A stretch of 64,000 bases of DNA from positions 1 through 64,000 of the forward strand of contig JAHZKX010000011.1 of NCBI GenBank assembly GCA_022600195.1, written 5' to 3'. The notes beneath the pieces were generated by a model, which worked only from the letters and a program-made list of their open reading frames with translations, had not been told where the DNA came from and did not search any database. Positions 466 to 23,630 of the stretch are shown one piece after another. Each line of letters opens with the position of its first letter. The stretch's first letter is position 1. The position numbers and the translations under genes were made by a program. Source of the DNA: Planctomycetota bacterium (lineage in GTDB: Bacteria; Planctomycetota; Planctomycetia; Planctomycetales; Planctomycetaceae).

Positions 466-1941
466 CTAAAGAGGTTCGGTTGCTTGAAGCAGACCATCGA
501 AGTCCGCGTTGCCGAGCCACTCTGATACGATAGACATGGATGGTCTGTCCTGAGGAGCCTGGGCTAGCATGGGATCGAGTATCTTCACAAAACGTTCCGG
601 TACGGTGCGTAATGCCTTGTCGCGTGCGGCTCCCGAGGCGATGCTTTGGATAGTGCGTACGATATTGCGCTCAGTCAGCACCGGTTTGCCTGTGAGCAAT
701 TCGCACAAAATCAACCCAAAGGAGAAGACGTCCGACTCGGCCGAGACGGGAGCTCCCTGGGTCTGCTCTGGAGACATGAAAGCGGGAGTTCCTGTGATCT
801 TGCCGTTCGGGGCATTCGGCATGTGGATTGTCTCGAAGAGAAACGTTGCATCAGGGTCGTCATTATCCACACCAGAACTTGATGGAACTAATTTCTTGTC
901 AGACTCCATCACTCCTGCTGTTTTGGCGAGACCGAAATCCAACAGCTTCGTGTCTCCAGCCTTTGTCACCATGATGTTGGCGGGCTTCAAGTCGCCATGA
1001 ACAATATCGTTCTCATGCGCGACGACCAGACCTGCGGCGATACCTCGTGTGATATGCCCAAGCATTGCTGCATCGATCGAATTGATCTCGATCTCGTTTA
1101 AAGTTTGGCCTTCGACGTACTCCATCACAATCACAGGCAGTCCATTAATTATCTCAACCGCATAGACCGAACAAATATTGGGGTGCTGAAGTCGAGCGGC
1201 GGAACGCGCCTCGGCTAGCACCGCATCTTTTGCGGTTATCAGTTCGGCGTGGACGATTTTGACCGCAACCTTTCGATCCAATGTCAGATCATGTACGGCG
1301 AAAACTGTTCCGAAAGCTCCGCTTCCTAGTTTTTCCAAAATTCGATAATGGCCGAGCACGCGATCCACCTCAAGCTGACCCGCCACGTCAATCGTCCCAT
1401 CTGCCCTGGCCCAGCTTGCTGGGCACAGCCCACCCGATTGGCACGCATTAACAACTCGCAGTGTCTCCTCAACACTGCGCCCCACCTTGGTGTTATGAAC
1501 AACAGAGTACTGTAATATCCCTTCGGGGTCGATCAGGAACAACCCACGTGACGGACAATTCTTGTCGCTGGTCCACGCGCCGTAACGGCGGCAGACTTCA
1601 CCCGTTGGGTCTGAACCAAGTGGAAACTGCAGTGGGCCCACGCCTCCCTGGTCAAGGGGTGTATCCAGCCAGCGCCGATGGTCTTTCAGTGTATCGATGC
1701 TAATTGCCAGCAGTTCAACATTGCGCGTTTGGAACTCGTGAATCTGTGCGCTAAAAGCGGTCAGTTCCGTCGGGCAAACGAAGGAAAAATCTCGCGGATA
1801 GAACAACAGAAGTAACCAGTTTCCAGCATAGGAATCAAGCGATCGAGATTCGGCAGCGGGTCGGCCAAAGCGGACAACGTCCACTTGGAACTCGGGAGCC
1901 GGATTATCGATCATCGGTGGAGCGTTCATGTGAATTACCAC
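466..1941 (-). CDS. Peroxiredoxin-serine/threonine protein kinase fusion
   Basis: The first ~185 residues form an AhpC/Prx1-type 2-Cys peroxiredoxin. The peroxidatic Cys56 sits in FSFVCPTEL and the resolving Cys173 in GLCPASW. From ~198 to ~470 there is a Hanks-type protein kinase: glycine loop LGSGAFGTV, Lys228 in VAVKIV, catalytic HGDLKPAN (Asp317), DFG at 335-337 and a SPEQ activation-segment end. Both active sites look intact. Prx enzymes reduce peroxides through a Cys-sulfenate and a disulfide, so the architecture suggests a kinase whose activity follows peroxide through the attached Prx (inference). No membrane segment is seen, so it is probably cytosolic. The longest frame starts at GTG 1941; the ATG at 1929 (residue 5) is an equally good start. 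Neither has a clear ribosome site. Confidence 0.9.
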   Translation of the reverse strand: MVIHMNAPPMIDNPAPEFQVDVVRFGRPAAESRSLDSYAGNWLLLLFYPRDFSFVCPTELTAFSAQIHEFQTRNVELLAISIDTLKDHRRWLDTPLDQGGVGPLQFPLGSDPTGEVCRRYGAWTSDKNCPSRGLFLIDPEGILQYSVVHNTKVGRSVEETLRVVNACQSGGLCPASWARADGTIDVAGQLEVDRVLGHYRILEKLGSGAFGTVFAVHDLTLDRKVAVKIVHAELITAKDAVLAEARSAARLQHPNICSVYAVEIINGLPVIVMEYVEGQTLNEIEINSIDAAMLGHITRGIAAGLVVAHENDIVHGDLKPANIMVTKAGDTKLLDFGLAKTAGVMESDKKLVPSSSGVDNDDPDATFLFETIHMPNAPNGKITGTPAFMSPEQTQGAPVSAESDVFSFGLILCELLTGKPVLTERNIVRTIQSIASGAARDKALRTVPERFVKILDPMLAQAPQDRPSMSIVSEWLGNADFDGLLQATEPL

Positions 1942-1958
1942 TCATAGTACATGAAGTG

Positions 1959-2228
1959 TTAAACGACACTCTGTTTGCTGATGTACTTCAGTGGTTCCGC
2001 ATAGCACTTCAAGTGCTTCATCACGGCTTCCTGAACGAGCTGTCGCTGGTAGTACGATTGCATTTCTCCGAGCACTTTAACACGACCGGGCTTTGCCTGC
2101 AACGAATGCTCTTTCACATTTCTTCGCCGTAGCTCTGGATTTCCACTGATAATTTCCCGCTCAATGGACGCAAAAAAAAGTCTGGTCGTATTGGGTTCCG
2201 AATTGAAATAGACGAGTAACACGAACAA
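1959..2228 (-). CDS. Small BON-domain-like protein
   Basis: The frame reads SGNPELRRRNVKE, then GRVKVLGEMQSYYQRQLVQE, then a hydrophobic/basic end. This matches the BON fold pattern of a charged helix, a G-x-V-x-L-x-G strand, and SYYxKQLxQE followed by a second helix and a final strand. BON domains are thought to bind phospholipid or membranes. The frame opens with TTG at 2228 and the true start is uncertain; the first ~25 residues do not look conserved. It lies 17 bp upstream of the peroxiredoxin-kinase gene on the same strand and could be co-transcribed. At 89 residues it could also be a trimmed copy. Confidence 0.5.
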   Translation of the reverse strand: MFVLLVYFNSEPNTTRLFFASIEREIISGNPELRRRNVKEHSLQAKPGRVKVLGEMQSYYQRQLVQEAVMKHLKCYAEPLKYISKQSVV

Positions 2229-2628
2229 AGTCCTGCGACAGCCACGTGAGGCTGACTTCGGAAGGCTTGGACCTGAGTCATTGCCTGCTCAGACAGGGCC
2301 TCTGTCATAGACTTCGACAGGGAGTGCGTTTTATTAAAGACTCCACCTCATTATACTCTGTATATACCTCTCGACGAAGAGATTAAAATTGAGAGCATTT
2401 GGTGGTATAATCATTCCTTCAAGTGCGCGCTACACCTGGAAGCACGTAAGTGCTGGATTGATTCATATTAGTTCTGAGGGAGCTGCTTGATATTGGTTTC
2501 TTCTGGCTTCGTATGACCCATCAGTGATCAAATATAAAAACAGTGGACCAAAAAGAATAATGAATTCAGACAGTGATGATTCAACGAGCCTTAAGAGAAT
2601 TATTTCTGGTCATAATATAGAGAGTCAA

Positions 2629-5600
2629 ATGACGATGAAAAAGTTTGCCTTTTTTCTGTTGATCCTTTTTCCCGGACATCTGACATTCGCAGAAGACTGG
2701 AATACATGGAGACATGATAATCAACACTCGGGTATCTCCAATGAAGAGTTGCCTGAGAACCTAAAACTCATCTGGGCACGTCAGCTCCCCAAACCCTCTC
2801 CTGCATGGAATGACTCAAGATTACAATTTGATAAAAGTATTCACCTCGTTATTTCCGGTTCGACCACATACGTTAATACTCCCGATTTAGAGGGAGTTCG
2901 TGCTTACCATGCGGATTCCGGAAAAGAAATCTGGCGGTTCAACGCAAATGGACCAGTCCGCGTAGCTCCTTGTATTGCAGGAATTAATATTCTAATTGCC
3001 TGTGATGATGGATTCCTGTACTGCCTCGATAAAAAAACAGGCAACATCAAATGGAAATTCTTCGCGGGTCACAATGAAAAGAGAACATTAGGAAATGGAA
3101 AATTAATCTCAATCTGGCCCGTCAGGGGTGGCCCCGTTGTAGAAAACGGAGTGGTGTATTGTGCCGCCGGCGTTTGGCCATTTATGGGGACGATTATCTA
3201 TGCCATAGATCTCAATACCGGCCACGAAATTTGGAGAAACGAAGAAACAAGTCTCATGTATTTTGAACAAGATGGGGCGGGAGAAGGTTATGGTTTTGGA
3301 GGCCCCTCTCCTCAAGGCAGTATCGCAATCAACGGCGAAAACCTTGTCATTCCCGCTGGACGAGCCTGGCCCATGCAGATCAATAAAACGACGGGGAAAC
3401 TCCTGCCTTATTATCCCGGCGTAAAAGATCACGGCGGAGGCGGAAGTGTTCGCATCTCAGTTTACGATGATTATTTGACAATGGGCGGTTTTGTATTCAG
3501 TCTGAAGAATTTTCTTCCCCTGAGTTTTAATGATAAAGCGAAATTCCTGAAACCATTTTCCGCTTTATCGCTAATCGACCAGGAAGTTCTGTATTCAGTA
3601 AGCGAACAGCAATTCACTGCATTCAGTTTAAATCAGCCGGAACTCAAGCTTTACAGGGGTGGTTTTGGAGTTCAAGCGCTGCAAGCGACAGCACCGAAAT
3701 TATGGGAATTCACGCACGACAAACCATTGATGACTTTTATTAAATCTGGTTCTAAAATCTACGCAAGTACAGAAAGTGAAATTTTAGCGATCAAGGTCGA
3801 GTCAGAGTTGGACGAAAAACGCGTGGCCTGGAGTATCGATACACCTGACACGGTCCTTGAATTGGCAGCCGCCAATGGAAAACTGTATGCATCGACCAAA
3901 GGGGGATGGGTCTATTGTTATGGAACTGGCAACGGTGAACCAAAAGTCTATTCTCGACCTAAGCAAGAATTACCTCAAGCCGACATCTGGCAAGAAAAAG
4001 TATTAAGGCTTAAAGAGAAACTGAGTTTGAATGAAGGTTATTGTTTAGTAACAGGCCTCAAAGATGGGGAACTTTTACGTGCTTTAGTAAAAAACACCCA
4101 ACTAAAGATCATCGCCATTGATCAGCATTCCGAACTGGTAAATCGATTAAGAGTTGAATACGAAGAAGCAGGTCTCTTAGGCAACCGAGTCATACTTCAC
4201 CAGGGTTCTCCACTCGAATTCGAATATCCTCAATACTTAGCCAAGCTGATTATTTCTGAATATTCATATGAAAGTAACCATTCCTTTTTTGAGAATCTGA
4301 TTACGAAAACCTATTCCTCGCTGAGACCCTTCGGTGGAGCTTTGGCGATCAACGTGCCTGCCTCTAAACAGGACCGCTTCACCAGTATGATTCAACCGAT
4401 GACCTTGGAGAAAATGGATCTCTCTCGTCAAGATGATTGGACATTGCTGATTCGTTCGGGAGCGTTAGCAGGGAGCGATGATTGGACACACGAATCAGGA
4501 AATCCGGGAAATACCTGGAAAAATAATGACAAGCTCGTCAAAGCACCTTTGGGTGTTCTCTGGTACGGAGGCAGCGCAGGTGCTGATGAACTCTTCATGC
4601 ATAAAGATAAGGATCCTTCCACTCCACAGATTGTAGACGGAAGAATGTTTATTCATGGCGAGAGAGTGATGACTTCCATCGATATCTATACCGGTCAGAT
4701 TATCTGGAAGAAAAAGATACCTGCCGCGCGATTGTTTCGTAATGACAGAACGAACGTCACGGGGATCAAACCTTGGAACACAAGAGCAGGCACTCGCCCT
4801 GCCCGTTCAGATTTTGTTGCTGATAAACAAGGTTTGTTTTTAGTTTTGGGTCAGAAAATAGTACGCTGGGATTCCGCGACAGGAAAAGAAATTCAATCTT
4901 ATGTTGTGCCTCCAGAACTTCCAGGAGGCAGGTCTCCTCATATCGGCCAACTAAAAATAAAAGGCCATGTCATGATTGTCAGTGCCGGCTATGAAGCTCC
5001 AGAGCTCGGTGCTACTTTTGTCACCGATGACTTTGAAGCTCTCTCAAAAGAGGAACTCAAAACGACGTTGAGCCGTTTGAAAACATGGCTGCCCGAGAAC
5101 ATTGTCAATCGAAATAAAGACGAACAGGATTTAGAATATTTGACGCGTTACGCAAATCACCTTCTAAGCCAGAAAGAATTAGAGAAAAAAGTTTTACCTT
5201 CAGTACAAAGCCAGCCACTAGACACCACACAATTGGAAAAACTTTCAAACACAAAAAAATCGTTCGAACACTACTACCAAATACAAAAACAATACTTCGC
5301 TCCGTTTCTATCATTGAGAGACCTGAATCGTAAACTGATCGAAGCGGCGTTTCCTGATATCAAAACAATGCCACTAAAAACAAACTGGGACAATGAGCGT
5401 TATTGGAGAGGCGCTGCCACAAAACAGATCGTTGCCATCGATATCAACAGCGGAAAAGTACTCTGGAGAAAAATTTCGAACTATGGCTTCCCGCACAAAT
5501 CGGTTGCGATTGGAAACGGTCGCGTTTTCTGTTTAGACCGCATCGACATTGCCACCCTGGAACTCACCAAACGAAGAGGAGTTGCGGTTGAACATACCCC

Positions 5601-17309: not shown

Positions 17310-20228
17310 CTACGGCAGTACAACAGAAAACACTGATGTGAATACGATTTCTGTACCCAAACCAGTTAACAAAGAAAGCTCAATAAGAATTAACAAAGAC
17401 TTTGGTTGCCATTTTGCCATACAGCCCCCTGTGACTGCAACCATTAACGCCGTTGCCAGCCAGTAATAGAGCCAGCCCAGATCTAATACCAGCACATAAC
17501 CGCAAAGCAGTACAAAACAAAAAATGGCCAGCCAATTGTGCGGCTTGCTGCTTGTGATTAAATTTGCAGACGGTGTTTGCCTGGCACGTATTCCAAGTAC
17601 GACGACAATGCACATTAATAAGAGAGTTGCAACCAGAATATAGAACGGAAAATCAGGAATCTGGACCGTTGAGCTGGGGACCAGTTCGCTAAATATCTTC
17701 TCACTTTGGCTGATGTTCTCATTTAATTTCTCGCCCCGATAAAACACAGGTGCAATAGACAACGCGCGTAAACTCTTCTGTACAGAATCAGATTGCATCG
17801 CCTGTTCCAGTGCATCTGCTAGCAGATCAATTCGACCTTGAGTAGTGCCTTTGGGTGCCCACCAGTATAACGAGTTGCCAACCACTGCATCGATATCCTG
17901 TTCGCGAGCCGTCAATACGTCCGGCAGAGCGGAATGCCTCTGTTCGGACAATACCGCCAAAGCACGAATCTGACCATCTCCTCGATAGGCCAGATATTCT
18001 GCCAGCGAAAATATGGCGACATCAATATGACCACCAATGAGCTGCGTGTATCGCTTTTGCCCACCCCCCGTTTGCACATAATTAAAAAATTCACCACCAG
18101 AAACCTGTTCTATTTTTTTGGCAGCGAAATGGGCGAGTGCCCCCAGGTTGGTTCCAAATTGAACTTCACCCGGATGTTTCCTGGCATGATTCAACAGCTC
18201 AGCCAAATTTTTGTAAGGGGCATTATGATGCATGACAACCATCAGGTTTACGTTTCCTGTTTGGGCAATTGGCTCAAAAGCCTCCGGACCATAATTCACT
18301 TTGCCTGAGTATTTCGATGTAATAATCCCCTCATGCATGCAGAGGATTTTGTAACCATCAGCCCGCGCCTGTTTGACATTTCGGCTCCCAATCGTACCAC
18401 TGCCGCCCCCCTGATTAATGATGACGAGAGGTTGTTTTAACAGCTTGTTCTCGGTGATTGACTTTTGAATGATTCTGGCAAACAGGTCCGTTCCGCCTCC
18501 TGCAGAAAACGGCACGACCGCCTGAACGGGGTGTTGTGGAAATTGCGTCAGCTCATGTTTATTCGCGAAGAAACCGGAAAACTGAAAGACCATCATGCCA
18601 ATAATGGTCATTACAGCAACCGTATGCCATAACGACAGACCGTATCGACTCCAAAATGAGTGAGACCCATCTTCTGTGTGCTCACTCAATGTTTCTGAGG
18701 AATCAGGAGCAGTTGACTTATCAGCATTATCATGCATGGTCTCTTTTTTGCTATCCGCTTGTTTGCGGAACCGGCGTACAAGCGGCACAATCAGCAATAT
18801 TGCAGAGACGACGACAAACAGTAATGAAATTGGCCGGGTGATGATCGGTAACCAGCTACCATGCGATGACATCAGCCCGGAACATAAATTTTCTTCAGCA
18901 ATCGGACCTAAAACAAATCCGATTACGAAGGGCGCCAATGGGATTCGGTTTCGCTCTAAGACCAGTCCCAGCAGCCCGAAGCCGAGCATCACCCAGACAT
19001 CAAACATTCGGTTTGATAACGCAAATGCTCCTGCAATGCAGAAGGTGAGAATAATCGGTAACAAATAAGGGCGTGGAATCCGGACCAGTTTTGCCAGAAA
19101 ACTGACCGATGCAATCATTACTGCAAACATGACCAGATTTGACAGAAAATAGGTTCCCATAATGGTATGTACGAGTTCGGGATGATCGCTGAATAATCGC
19201 GGCCCCGGTTGTAAACCATGCAGAACTAATGCGCCGAGCAATATGGCATCAATCACACTGCCTGGGATGCCCATCGCTACGAGTGGGATTAAGGCACCTC
19301 CTACGGTCGCATTATTGGCCGCTTCAGAAGCAACAATTCCCTCAGCAGAGCCAGTACCAAATTTCTGTGGAGTTTTTGAATTGTTTTTGGCGGCTGAATA
19401 AGCAGCCATCGATCCTATGTTTGCACCAATGCCGGGAAGAACTCCGATCGCGGTTCCGATAAATGATGATCGTAACATATTAACCCATTGGTTTTTCCAA
19501 TCTGCAAACGTCAGCAATAACCCCTTGTGTGTTACCGAGACATGTGGGATTTTTTGGTCAATATTCGCAATATCGCGCAGCACCTGATTGATTGCAAACA
19601 AGCCAATTAAAACTGGCAGTAATTTGAAACCATCATTAAGAGGAGTGAATCCCATTGTGAGTCGTACTTCGCCGGTGGCTGCGGAAATTCCCGGCATGGC
19701 TGCCAAAATTCCCAATGATCCAGAAAAGAGGGATCGCGTCAGCGATTTGCCATCAATTGTTGCGATCAACACCAAAGCCATCAGTACCAGCGAAAAATAT
19801 TCAAAAGGTCCCAATTGTGTTGACCAACGGGCAATCGGAGCAGACAAGGTCACTAAGAACAGACAGGATATTAAACCACCCACCAGAGACGCACATATTC
19901 CCAACCCCAGCGCACGGCCGGGCTGACCTTTTTGAGACATGGGGTAACCATCGAGGGTTGTCATCACTGAGGCGGGTGTGCCGGGCATTCGTAAGAGTGT
20001 ACCGGTAATCAAGCCACCGCTGATTGATCCCACATACATGCTCACTAACAATGTCATCGCAAGTTGTGGATCGAGCGTAAACGTCAAAGGCAACGTGAGT
20101 GCGATCAACATGGCACCGGTTAACCCGGGAATGGCACCCACGAAAATGCCAAGCGATGTCCCCACAATAATCAGCGTCAGGCTGAGAGGTGTCGATAATT
20201 GAACAACTGTAGTTTGAATCGCATCCAT
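17310..20228 (-). CDS. Single-chain TctA-TctC-TctB tripartite tricarboxylate-type transporter
   Basis: Residues 1-~500 are a TctA-type large permease (LGIFVGAIPGLTGAMLIALT, then IGVLPGIGANIGSMAAYSAA). A charged linker and one membrane span at ~535-555 follow. Residues ~565-850 are a TctC-type solute-binding domain, with VQAVVPFSAGGGTDLFARII, then NQGGGSGTIGSRNVKQA. The last ~110 residues have four hydrophobic spans like the small permease TctB. In known TTT systems these are three separate proteins, with TctC free in the periplasm. Here the binding protein appears tethered between the two membrane subunits. The frame is open throughout with no gap. The substrate is unknown, probably an organic acid anion. 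No clear ribosome site precedes the ATG. Confidence 0.88.
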   Translation of the reverse strand: MDAIQTTVVQLSTPLSLTLIIVGTSLGIFVGAIPGLTGAMLIALTLPLTFTLDPQLAMTLLVSMYVGSISGGLITGTLLRMPGTPASVMTTLDGYPMSQKGQPGRALGLGICASLVGGLISCLFLVTLSAPIARWSTQLGPFEYFSLVLMALVLIATIDGKSLTRSLFSGSLGILAAMPGISAATGEVRLTMGFTPLNDGFKLLPVLIGLFAINQVLRDIANIDQKIPHVSVTHKGLLLTFADWKNQWVNMLRSSFIGTAIGVLPGIGANIGSMAAYSAAKNNSKTPQKFGTGSAEGIVASEAANNATVGGALIPLVAMGIPGSVIDAILLGALVLHGLQPGPRLFSDHPELVHTIMGTYFLSNLVMFAVMIASVSFLAKLVRIPRPYLLPIILTFCIAGAFALSNRMFDVWVMLGFGLLGLVLERNRIPLAPFVIGFVLGPIAEENLCSGLMSSHGSWLPIITRPISLLFVVVSAILLIVPLVRRFRKQADSKKETMHDNADKSTAPDSSETLSEHTEDGSHSFWSRYGLSLWHTVAVMTIIGMMVFQFSGFFANKHELTQFPQHPVQAVVPFSAGGGTDLFARIIQKSITENKLLKQPLVIINQGGGSGTIGSRNVKQARADGYKILCMHEGIITSKYSGKVNYGPEAFEPIAQTGNVNLMVVMHHNAPYKNLAELLNHARKHPGEVQFGTNLGALAHFAAKKIEQVSGGEFFNYVQTGGGQKRYTQLIGGHIDVAIFSLAEYLAYRGDGQIRALAVLSEQRHSALPDVLTAREQDIDAVVGNSLYWWAPKGTTQGRIDLLADALEQAMQSDSVQKSLRALSIAPVFYRGEKLNENISQSEKIFSELVPSSTVQIPDFPFYILVATLLLMCIVVVLGIRARQTPSANLITSSKPHNWLAIFCFVLLCGYVLVLDLGWLYYWLATALMVAVTGGCMAKWQPKSLLILIELSLLTGLGTEIVFTSVFSVVLP

Positions 20229-21258: not shown

Positions 21259-21340
21259 TAGCCAAGGCGAGATTCGAACTCGCACTCCCGAAGGAACGAC
21301 TTTCTAAAAGTCGCGCGTCTCCCAGTTTCGCCACTTGGCC
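21259..21340 (-). tRNA. tRNA-Leu(TAG)
   Basis: The acceptor GGCCAAG pairs with CTTGGCT. The anticodon loop TTTAGAA sits on the CGACT/AGTCG stem. A long variable arm (TTCCTTCGGGAG) is typical of Leu, and the T-arm is GAG-TTCGAAT-CTC. No CCA is encoded. Confidence 0.88.
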
Positions 21341-21368
21341 GATTTATAATCGTGCTTGATTTAAAAAA

Positions 21369-21450
21369 TGCGTTGGGACGGAGTTGAACCGCCACAGCCC
21401 GAAGGCGGGTGGGTTACAGCCACTGGGGCTCGCCAATGCCCAGCCAACGC
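21369..21450 (-). tRNA. tRNA-Tyr(GTA)
   Basis: The acceptor is a perfect 7-bp GCGTTGG/CCAACGC. The anticodon loop CTGTAAC gives GTA. A long variable arm (CCGCCTTCGGGC) fits bacterial tRNA-Tyr. The T-arm is GGCGG-TTCAACT-CCGTC. Confidence 0.85.
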
Positions 21451-21478
21451 AGGTGTTTTTTGTCATTTTGTTTCATAG

Positions 21479-21556
21479 TGACACGAGCGGGAGTCGAACC
21501 CGCAAACAATCACGAAATTTTAAGTTTCGTCGCTTTTCCAGTTTGCGTACCGTGCC
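21479..21556 (-). tRNA. tRNA-Leu(TAA)
   Basis: The acceptor GGCACGG pairs with TCGTGTC. The anticodon loop CTTAAAA sits on the CGAAA/TTTCG stem. The T-arm GCGGG-TTCGACT-CCCGC is perfect. The variable arm is shorter than in the TAG isoacceptor. Confidence 0.82.
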
Positions 21557-21564
21557 GTCTTAAG

Positions 21565-21639
21565 CGTCCCCGATGGGATTTGAACCCACGATCTCCTACG
21601 TGACAGGCAGGCGAACACTCCAGACTGCTCCGCGAGGAC
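21565..21639 (-). tRNA. tRNA-Asp(GTC)
   Basis: The acceptor GTCCTCG pairs with CGGGGAC. The anticodon loop CTGTCAC sits on the CCTGC/GTAGG stem. The T-arm is GTGGG-TTCAAAT-CCCAT. The discriminator is G, as usual for Asp. Confidence 0.85.
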
Positions 21640-21652
21640 GTAATTAATTCAG

Positions 21653-21694
21653 TAACTCAAGTGGGATTCGAACCCACAGCATTTTTCTTCAAGC
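21653..21694 (-). pseudogene. 3'-half tRNA remnant
   Basis: A perfect T-arm (GTGGG-TTCGAAT-CCCAC) is followed by a 3' acceptor strand TTGAGTT. No matching 5' acceptor or D-arm exists, because the next tRNA (Trp) begins directly upstream. The sequence CTTGAAG before it could be an anticodon loop with GAA (Phe), but no stem forms. It is probably a deletion product of recombination between neighbouring tRNA genes. Confidence 0.6.
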
Positions 21695-21764
21695 ACGCCC
21701 CCAAGGATTCGAACCCTGATCCACTGGGTTGGAGCCAGTCATGCTACCGTTACACCAGAGGCGT
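21694..21764 (-). tRNA. tRNA-Trp(CCA)
   Basis: The acceptor ACGCCTC pairs with GGGGCGT. The anticodon loop CTCCAAC sits on the perfect ACTGG/CCAGT stem. The D-arm is GTGTAACGGTAGCA and the discriminator is G. Confidence 0.9.
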
Positions 21765-21781
21765 CTATCCTCTCAGCAAAG

Positions 21782-21856
21782 CTGCGGCGGCAGGAATCGA
21801 ACCTGCGTCAAAGCGATTAACAGTCGCCCACTCGTACCAACACGAGTACCACCGCA
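21782..21856 (-). tRNA. tRNA-Asn(GTT)
   Basis: The acceptor TGCGGTG pairs with CGCCGCA. The anticodon loop CTGTTAA gives GTT. The T-arm GCAGG-TTCGATT-CCTGC is perfect. Confidence 0.85.
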
Positions 21857-21883
21857 TTAATCTGATCGTTCTCCTTAACAAAG

Positions 21884-21958
21884 TCAGGGTGACTGGATTT
21901 GAACCAGCGGTCTCATGCTTCCAAAACACGCGGGTTAGCCAGACTACCCCACACCCTG
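21884..21958 (-). tRNA. tRNA-Pro(TGG)
   Basis: The acceptor CAGGGTG pairs perfectly with CACCCTG. The anticodon loop TTTGGAA gives TGG. The T-arm is CTGG-TTCAAAT-CCAG. Confidence 0.88.
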
Positions 21959-21965
21959 AAATCAA

Positions 21966-22038
21966 GAGCGCCCAGCGGGAGTCGAACCCGCACTTCCGCC
22001 ATGGCAAGACAGTAGGCTGCCGCTACATCATGGGCGCT
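21966..22038 (-). tRNA. tRNA-Gly(GCC)
   Basis: The acceptor AGCGCCC pairs perfectly with GGGCGCT. The anticodon loop TTGCCAT gives GCC on a stem with two G-U pairs. The T-arm is GCGGG-TTCGACT-CCCGC. Confidence 0.88.
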
Positions 22039-22068
22039 GAATATGTTTTATGAATGTCAAAGAACAAG

Positions 22069-22140
22069 AGCACCAGGAGGGAATCGAACCCTCATCGCCG
22101 CTTTACAAGAACGGAGTCTTACCAACTATACGACCGGTGC
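22069..22140 (-). tRNA. tRNA-Thr(TGT)
   Basis: The acceptor GCACCGG pairs with CTGGTGC. The anticodon loop CTTGTAA gives TGT. The T-arm is GAGGG-TTCGATT-CCCTC. Confidence 0.9.
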
Positions 22141-22217
22141 ATGATTGTTTTTTTTAAGTAAACGTTCCGGAAGACCAATTCTTACAACTTATGTTGAAAT
22201 CTCTCGATCTGCTGAAA

Positions 22218-22289
22218 TGAGGTCGGAGGGACTTGAACCCCCACCTGCCTGGTTAAAAGCCAGTAATGCTACCATTACACCACGACCCC
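22218..22289 (-). tRNA. tRNA-Lys(TTT)
   Basis: The acceptor GGGGTCG pairs with CGACCTC (one G-U). The anticodon loop CTTTTAA gives TTT on a stem with an A-G mismatch at its base. The T-arm is GGGGG-TTCAAGT-CCCTC, with one G-U pair at its outer end. Confidence 0.85.
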
Positions 22290-22374
22290 AAATGGGAGAG
22301 GGGTGTTTCCGTTTATAACGCTGACTGTGACACATCGTTTCTATTCCTCAATAAAATTTAACAGTAATAAAAGG

Positions 22375-22447
22375 TGACCCGTGTGGGATTCGAACCCGAC
22401 CTGACCGGCGTGAAAGACCAGTAACCTCACCAGAAGTTGAACGGGCC
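22375..22447 (-). tRNA. tRNA-Glu(TTC)
   Basis: The acceptor GGCCCGT pairs with ACGGGTC. The anticodon loop CTTTCAC gives TTC. The T-arm is TCGGG-TTCGAAT-CCCAC. It is the first gene of the minus-strand array, just below a predicted terminator. Confidence 0.88.
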
Positions 22448-22883: not shown

Positions 22884-23630
22884 TTAATACTTCTTGTAAA
22901 TCTTTGACAATTCCAATAGTTCCTGCAGATACGCGGCAGAGTGTTCAATCACCGCGTTTTTGAAGACCTCTCCTTTTTCTGCGGTCGCCTGAGTTGGGTG
23001 CCCTGCATGCCCTTCTCCGTCCGAAAGCGTGTGCATCGACCACATATCCTGCAAAGGTGCTTTGAAGTGTGGTGTGGGATTATCAATCCGTTCGTCGCGC
23101 ACGTGCTCCGCATTCAGAGCCAGCATCAATGACGTTTCCACATCACCACAATGGACTTCAAAGCCGTGCGCAAAGGTATCATAAATTTCTTGTGGGACTT
23201 GTTCCCAGGGATTGAGATAGAACAGTTGGCACTTCTTTTTCTCGCAATTCAATTCTCGAATGATAGGCTTCAGAATAAAATTCCCGCCGTGCCAGGGACA
23301 GACGACTAAATGTTGAATGCCTTCTGCCTCCAGAGAATTCCAGATGTCCCGAATGATGGCACGCATCGTCAGCGGTGTAAAACTGACCGTTCCTTTAAAT
23401 CCCGTGTTTTCTTCAGATGAAGAGATCGGCAATGTCGGCAAGAGATAAACATGCCCCGGCCAATCTAATTTTGATAACATTTCTGACGAGAGTGCGTCAG
23501 CCAATATTGTATCAGTCGCCAAAGGCAAGTGACGCGAATGCTGCTCGGTCGCACCAATGGGAAGAAAAGCCAGATTCGGTTTGAGCTCATCCAATTCAAA
23601 AGCAGTATTCTGATCGTTTAATATTTGCAT
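22884..23630 (-). CDS. Creatininase-family amidohydrolase
   Basis: It carries the family signature LPIGATEQHSRHLPLATDT with the metal ligands Glu-x-His and Asp. CPWHGGNF and VHCGDVETSLML follow in the expected order, and the length (248) is normal. Relatives include creatinine amidohydrolase and formamide hydrolases of flavin/peptide pathways, so the substrate is open. It starts 40 bp after the thioredoxin-like membrane protein on the same strand and may be part of the sigma factor operon. Confidence 0.88.
   Translation of the reverse strand: MQILNDQNTAFELDELKPNLAFLPIGATEQHSRHLPLATDTILADALSSEMLSKLDWPGHVYLLPTLPISSSEENTGFKGTVSFTPLTMRAIIRDIWNSLEAEGIQHLVVCPWHGGNFILKPIIRELNCEKKKCQLFYLNPWEQVPQEIYDTFAHGFEVHCGDVETSLMLALNAEHVRDERIDNPTPHFKAPLQDMWSMHTLSDGEGHAGHPTQATAEKGEVFKNAVIEHSAAYLQELLELSKIYKKY

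Follow-up and report, generated by a model that had tools for sequence, protein, structure and literature searches.

A predicted single-chain TctA-TctC-TctB transporter conserved in one planctomycete genus

One open reading frame encoding all three component families of a TTT transporter was found in the window, which is the whole 64,000-nucleotide stretch of planctomycete DNA analysed here, from a genome of 6.58 Mb in 84 contigs. Judged from the sequence, it is a real and conserved single-chain TTT gene, so far found in one genus only, in which the same parts are put together in a new architecture. We consider it probable that this one membrane protein is a complete working TTT importer with a doubly anchored binding domain per channel, likely importing a small sulfated anion. 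The frame runs from 20228 to 17310 on the minus strand and encodes 972 amino acids from ATG to TAG. An earlier sequence-only reading had noticed an uninterrupted frame at 17310-20228; its 972 codons were indeed open, and its strand was corrected to minus. A plus-strand frame was rejected because of the many stops there. The features of the locus were as follows.

17310..20228, minus strand: gene for the TctA-TctC-TctB single chain, 972 aa followed by the stop, assigned by Pfam and present at full length in 12 of the 17 genus members
18744..20228, minus strand: TctA domain, residues 1-495, with PF01970 at 17-436 (profile 1-423 of 423) and fair to good model confidence
18633..18743, minus strand: hydrophilic linker, residues 496-532, probably cytoplasmic; variable, frame open, one 1-residue gap column in 12 rows
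18579..18632, minus strand: connecting helix, residues 533-550, at the site of the relatives' signal sequence; strict lipobox in 0 of 12
17664..18548, minus strand: TctC solute-binding domain, residues 561-855, from PF03401, the structure model and its match to solved TctC-type structures
17313..17651, minus strand: TctB domain lacking the first helix, residues 860-972, with PF07331 profile 32-137 of 137 and four predicted helices
15804..17201, minus strand: sulfatase of 465 aa (PF00884), next gene downstream, signal peptide not evident by eye

Upstream of the transporter gene, 11 tRNA genes were clustered on the minus strand at 21259-22447 of the window, and a creatininase-family gene (PF02633 by Pfam) was located at 22884-23630. 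Within 1.5-kb flanks, tRNAs were found upstream of the single-chain gene in three of 12 loci, with a different tRNA in two of the three; upstream tRNA genes are no constant of these loci.

Pfam identified all three TTT component families in the chain. TctA matched PF01970 over the full profile (E 8.7e-142, residues 17-436), and TctC matched PF03401 (E 5.4e-32, residues 585-839). TctB was missed when the whole chain was scanned, and this apparent absence was overturned by a PF07331 match of 31.6 bits, against a cut-off of 29.1, when the C-terminal half was scanned alone. Among 41 TctC-TctB sequences scanned, six of them from single chains, the TctC match was obtained in all 41 and the TctB match in 40. 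The order TctA-TctC-TctB in one polypeptide, as the sequence-only reading had it, was borne out by these three families. TctC lies between TctA and TctB, so the chain is not a TctA-TctB join without TctC; the usual though not obligatory layout of three subunits with a free binding protein gave way to a single uninterrupted frame in 12 of the 17 genomes. As for the glycine-proline motif of TctA, inspected by eye, the second copy (G258-G262-P265-G266-G268) fitted the last part of the wording in the excerpted text of PMC5812351, and the first copy (G23-G27-G31-P34-G35-G38) had one extra residue ahead of the last glycine.

The 12 genomes of the genus with the full-length chain were that of the window and 11 others at 82-88% identity; they were assembled separately, and nine of them were one-contig assemblies. 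Of the remaining five, one had a frame interrupted at residue 411, where its contig ended; the other four, one of them 100% complete, contained no match to the chain and only a second, different TTT system. A second TTT system was also present in the genome of the window (L002, G000:C70:353558-357868), as a TctC-TctB chain whose start resembles that of a lipoprotein, followed by a separate TctA gene. In the family, 63 of 170 genomes gave any match, and among the matches listed, with up to five candidates scored per genome, the full-length chain was confined to the 12 of the genus and absent from the other 153. No single chain was found in 80 named loci of another collection, several of which end at contig edges and one of which (L033) was a contig-cut fragment with 93% identity. 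When 392 genomes of the phylum were searched with up to four candidates scored in each, the strong TctA frames longer than 780 aa numbered nine, all of the genus, and one more long frame (872 aa) gave a weak match of 67.5 bits. No stop-free single chain was obtained from 288 genomes of the phylum to which G403 belongs (the Lentisphaera marina genome with locus L068) or, among the matches listed, from 299 genomes of the phylum that includes G405 (a Rubrivivax MAG with locus L111), searches which, at no more than two candidates per genome, could miss independent fusions. At least six matches in the latter set were long read-through frames (875-1066 aa) interrupted by one to three stops, and for three of those six (L164, L165 and L167) TctA and TctC were separate frames. 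Among the candidates scored, the proposed check on single-chain relatives and their phylogeny gave 12 chains, all of one genus and sister to a clade in which tctA precedes tctCB.

Other long TctA frames were also recorded. Those of 738, 686, 686 and 758 aa at L115 (1306-3519), L123 and L124 (both 1318-3375) and L159 (652-2925) may be TctAB or other fusions, and TctA frames of 640-708 aa were present in G400 and G402. Three genomes of one planctomycete genus, G286, G330 and G260, had 19, 14 and 12 TctA matches in drafts of 3.4, 3.0 and 2.7 Mb, a few of the matches being contig-cut, whereas the other matching genomes of the phylum sample had one or two each.

The TctA tree comprised 78 rows, namely the 12 single chains and 66 of 136 TctA frames after weaker, distant and contig-cut frames were left out, and the TctCB tree comprised 59 rows (12 plus 47 of 125 TctC frames). 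The joint tree was built under a plain LG+G4 model from 47 of 58 rows, 11 near-duplicates having been dropped. For the close relatives among the 66 rows, tctCB followed by tctA was the order in 40, tctA came first in seven, the two were on opposite strands in one, and TctA was alone in view in 11. Where proteobacterial or myxobacterial rows contained a TctC (seven rows), it was a separate protein, as it was in planctomycete TTT systems at a greater distance. In 48 of 48 close planctomycete, verrucomicrobial and lentisphaeral rows with a TctC gene beside a separate tctA, TctC was already fused to TctB. The sequence-only reading had described a normally free binding protein tethered between two membrane parts; the tethering was supported by the sequence, the profiles, the relatives and the model of the C-terminal half, and "normally free" did not apply to this lineage. 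Judging from these rows, what is new is the joining of the TctC-TctB unit to TctA.

The seven loci with tctA first belonged to Mariniblastus and other Pirellulaceae, with one Planctomycetaceae record and one verrucomicrobial bin. In all seven the tctA stop overlapped the tctCB start, as ATGA in six and as either GTGA or TGATG in L039. An eighth such locus, L154 (1447-4322), with an overlapping tctCB frame and a TctA of 67% identity, came from the phylum sample around Lentisphaera marina and was in none of the trees. The 12 single chains (SH-aLRT 100) were sister to the seven tctA-first rows (95) in the TctA tree; the two groups were united at 100 in the TctCB tree and at 100/100 in the joint tree, with one change of gene order. 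Long-branch warnings were raised on all three trees, concerning among others the verrucomicrobial row L047 in the TctCB and joint trees, and in the TctA tree the outgroup did not fall cleanly on one side of a branch and one row was misplaced.

An origin of the chain by mere stop-codon loss, with the genes in their usual order, was rejected. The usual order is tctCB and then tctA, and therefore the gene order had to change before the join. In the simplest story, whose direction of steps is read from the relatives, TctC would have joined TctB, tctA would then have moved in front and become coupled by the stop-start overlap, and a small change would have turned that overlap into an in-frame join.

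The TctB part was shorter than its free-standing counterparts. The PF07331 match started at position 2-5 in five of five free TctBs (four Pseudomonadota records and one deltaproteobacterial bin), and at 31-32 in three of three TctC-TctB proteins and in the C-terminal half of an additional single chain. It follows that TctC was fused to TctB at a point past the first helix of the latter. The start of free TctB is predicted to be cytoplasmic (PMC5812351, in part) and TctC must be periplasmic, so losing one helix would keep the remainder of TctB in its usual orientation. Two separate structure models were made. That of the C-terminal half (mean pLDDT 84) contained one helix ahead of the binding domain and four behind it, and its best matches among solved structures were TctC-type proteins, with TM-scores by target of 0.78-0.88. 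The full-length model was fair to good for TctA and below pLDDT 50 past residue 495, so the arrangement of the domains is not readable from it; a search of the PDB with it found nothing at E ≤ 0.001, and the single-sequence PDB search with the chain gave binding proteins only (11 of 11 matches).

In the layout that we favor, the TctA channel domain would end in the cytoplasm, and a linker of about 37 residues would lead to helix 533-550, crossing outwards. The TctC flytrap domain (561-855) would lie in the periplasm, and TctB without its first helix would lead the chain back through the membrane by helices at about 860-884, 898-917, 922-937 and 942-966. Each TctA would have one binding domain, anchored at both ends, and substrate transfer would be intramolecular instead of relying on a pool of free binding protein. 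It is reasonable to expect such tethering to alter substrate capture. Ion coupling of the chain would be presumed; it is experimentally unsettled even in ordinary TTT systems (excerpt of PMC5812351).

The sulfatase was the constant neighbor of the single chain. The statement that the transporter lies upstream of a sulfatase held when the genes were read as transcribed, with the sulfatase on the same strand 108 bases past the transporter stop. It was found downstream in 12 of 12 single-chain loci, with 91-100% identity (window included). A homologue of at least 66% identity was detected in 23 of the 66 loci L034-L099, on a varying side of the transporter and with contig-cut loci counted as misses. 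Five of the seven tctA-first loci had a less similar sulfatase (32-33%) directly downstream; of the other two, the contig of L038 ended too soon to show one and L047 had none adjoining. When the neighbors of 55 loci were clustered, sulfatases were present in 26 and, the transporter aside, no other gene in more than nine. A gene resembling that of a threonine dehydratase-type enzyme, judged from its sequence, was near the transporter in L038, L039, L043, L050, L052, L054, L056, L057 and L099. In L040 (5986-10712), TctA and TctC-TctB were on opposite strands with a sulfatase between them. L081 (1-11138, Acuticoccus kalidii) carried two TTT sets, each with TctC apart from TctB, along with two sulfatase homologues of 29-30% identity, and the link between TTT and sulfatase may extend beyond planctomycetes.

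The sulfatase was assigned to its family by PF00884, a family with many substrates; every NCBIfam model stayed below its cut-off, and arylsulfatase and choline-sulfatase came closest. It is probably cytosolic, since a signal peptide was not evident by eye. The pairing together with this probable location suggests that a sulfated small molecule is imported and then hydrolyzed inside, where the adjoining sulfatase would remove the sulfate from the imported anion. The substrate is therefore likely to be a small sulfated organic anion, to go by the gene neighborhood. In the papers found to mention both TTT and sulfatase, no such link appeared in a title or abstract opening.

The junction was compared among the 12 single chains (66 of 66 pairs). 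The median dN/dS was 0.083 for TctA, 0.41 for the linker (491-533), 0.27 for the helix stretch (534-560), 0.17 for TctC and 0.29 for TctB; TctA was the most constrained part and the linker and helix were among the least constrained stretches. The sole gap column of the 12-row alignment was a single residue in the linker. Since 12 of the 17 genus members share the uninterrupted frame and coding constraint runs through the junction, chance and assembly error are excluded as its source. Nothing was found in favor of an assembly or frameshift artefact, and the same join in 12 separately assembled genomes, nine of them one-contig, leaves the assembly error that the sequence-only reading had named as its possible undoing with a negligible probability. 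That the fusion is decaying or functionless might be argued from the four of 17 genus genomes without a match, one of them 100% complete; with 12 intact copies and a dN/dS well below 1 in every measured stretch, we regard this as highly improbable.

Separate translation, also raised by that reading, would leave TctA and a separate TctCB at work, with TctCB made additionally from an internal start; a cut of the one-piece chain near the connecting helix would have the same outcome. Close relatives do use two chains, the linker and helix change fast, and the codons at V481 (GTG in 11 of 12), V484 (GTG in 9 of 12) and M545 (ATG in 12 of 12) could in principle serve as internal starts. However, V481 and V484 are inside the last helix of TctA, where valine is expected anyway, and M545 is inside the connecting helix, so that a start there would strip most of the anchor. 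Between V484 and M545 the candidates were at best partial, in 6 to 8 of 12 species (residue 498, ATG in four and TTG in four; 514, TTG in six; 539, GTG in seven), and in the stretch from TctA to the anchoring helix no candidate start was common to all 12 species. Nor were cleavage signals apparent: a strict lipobox ahead of TctC was found in 0 of 12 single chains and 0 of seven tctA-first relatives, compared with 10 of 39 ordinary relatives (several others with near-forms; L084 was cut and offered nothing to test), and no signal peptidase I site was seen by eye. These results suggested that separate chains are unlikely. A receptor or regulator built on a TTT-like frame was considered very improbable: importer binding proteins can act in signaling (PMC11113362, in part) and the same genome has a second, two-gene TTT, but constraint on the chain is strongest in TctA, the Pfam scan revealed no signaling domain, and the constant neighbor is a sulfatase and not a sensor.

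An intact chain working as an importer is thus the reading we prefer. Its fuller form, in which a doubly anchored binding domain in fixed 1:1 ratio feeds its own channel with no excess of free binding protein needed, and the imported small sulfated anion is cleaved by the cytosolic sulfatase, is put forward tentatively, as a little short of an even chance. If it is true, substrate capture would be independent of excess free binding protein. TTT transporters are common yet little studied. In a natural single chain the stoichiometry is fixed, and the complete complex could become easier to study structurally; the series of separate genes, TctC-TctB fusion, overlapping tctA-tctCB and single chain makes gain or loss from tethering testable between relatives.

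A literature search, with most subscription journals outside its scope, gave no single-chain TTT and no TctC-TctB fusion among the matches listed, which is weak evidence of novelty. TTT systems are described as three proteins from separate tctC, tctB and tctA genes (PMC5812351, in part), and the usual three components are given likewise in the excerpts of PMC5898192 and PMC13390454. TctABC of the Salmonella type (TC 2.A.80) has the same three component families by Pfam, whereas the planctomycete chain is one polypeptide with TctB lacking its first helix and the binding domain doubly anchored. The TctC-TctB fusions found here in planctomycetes, verrucomicrobia and lentisphaerae share the C-terminal half and truncated TctB of the single chain; unlike in the single chain, their TctA is a separate gene, usually downstream. 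In ABC importer OpuA, the binding domain is linked to the translocator. OpuA and GlnPQ are ATP-driven and their translocator is unrelated to TTT; GlnPQ resembles the present chain in having its binding domain linked to the translocator (PMC8025302, in part). The TctAB fusion of Paraburkholderia caribensis, presented in the excerpted PMC5812351 as the first found of a kind called rare, has its membrane parts joined as here, with its binding protein outside the chain. TRAP systems, with fused QM and rare Q-P fusions, have arrived at the same solution of fusing a small membrane part to the channel or the binding protein (PMC8276074, in part); they have no sequence similarity to TTT (PMC5812351, in part), and the part of PMC8276074 available mentions no three-part chain such as the one described here.
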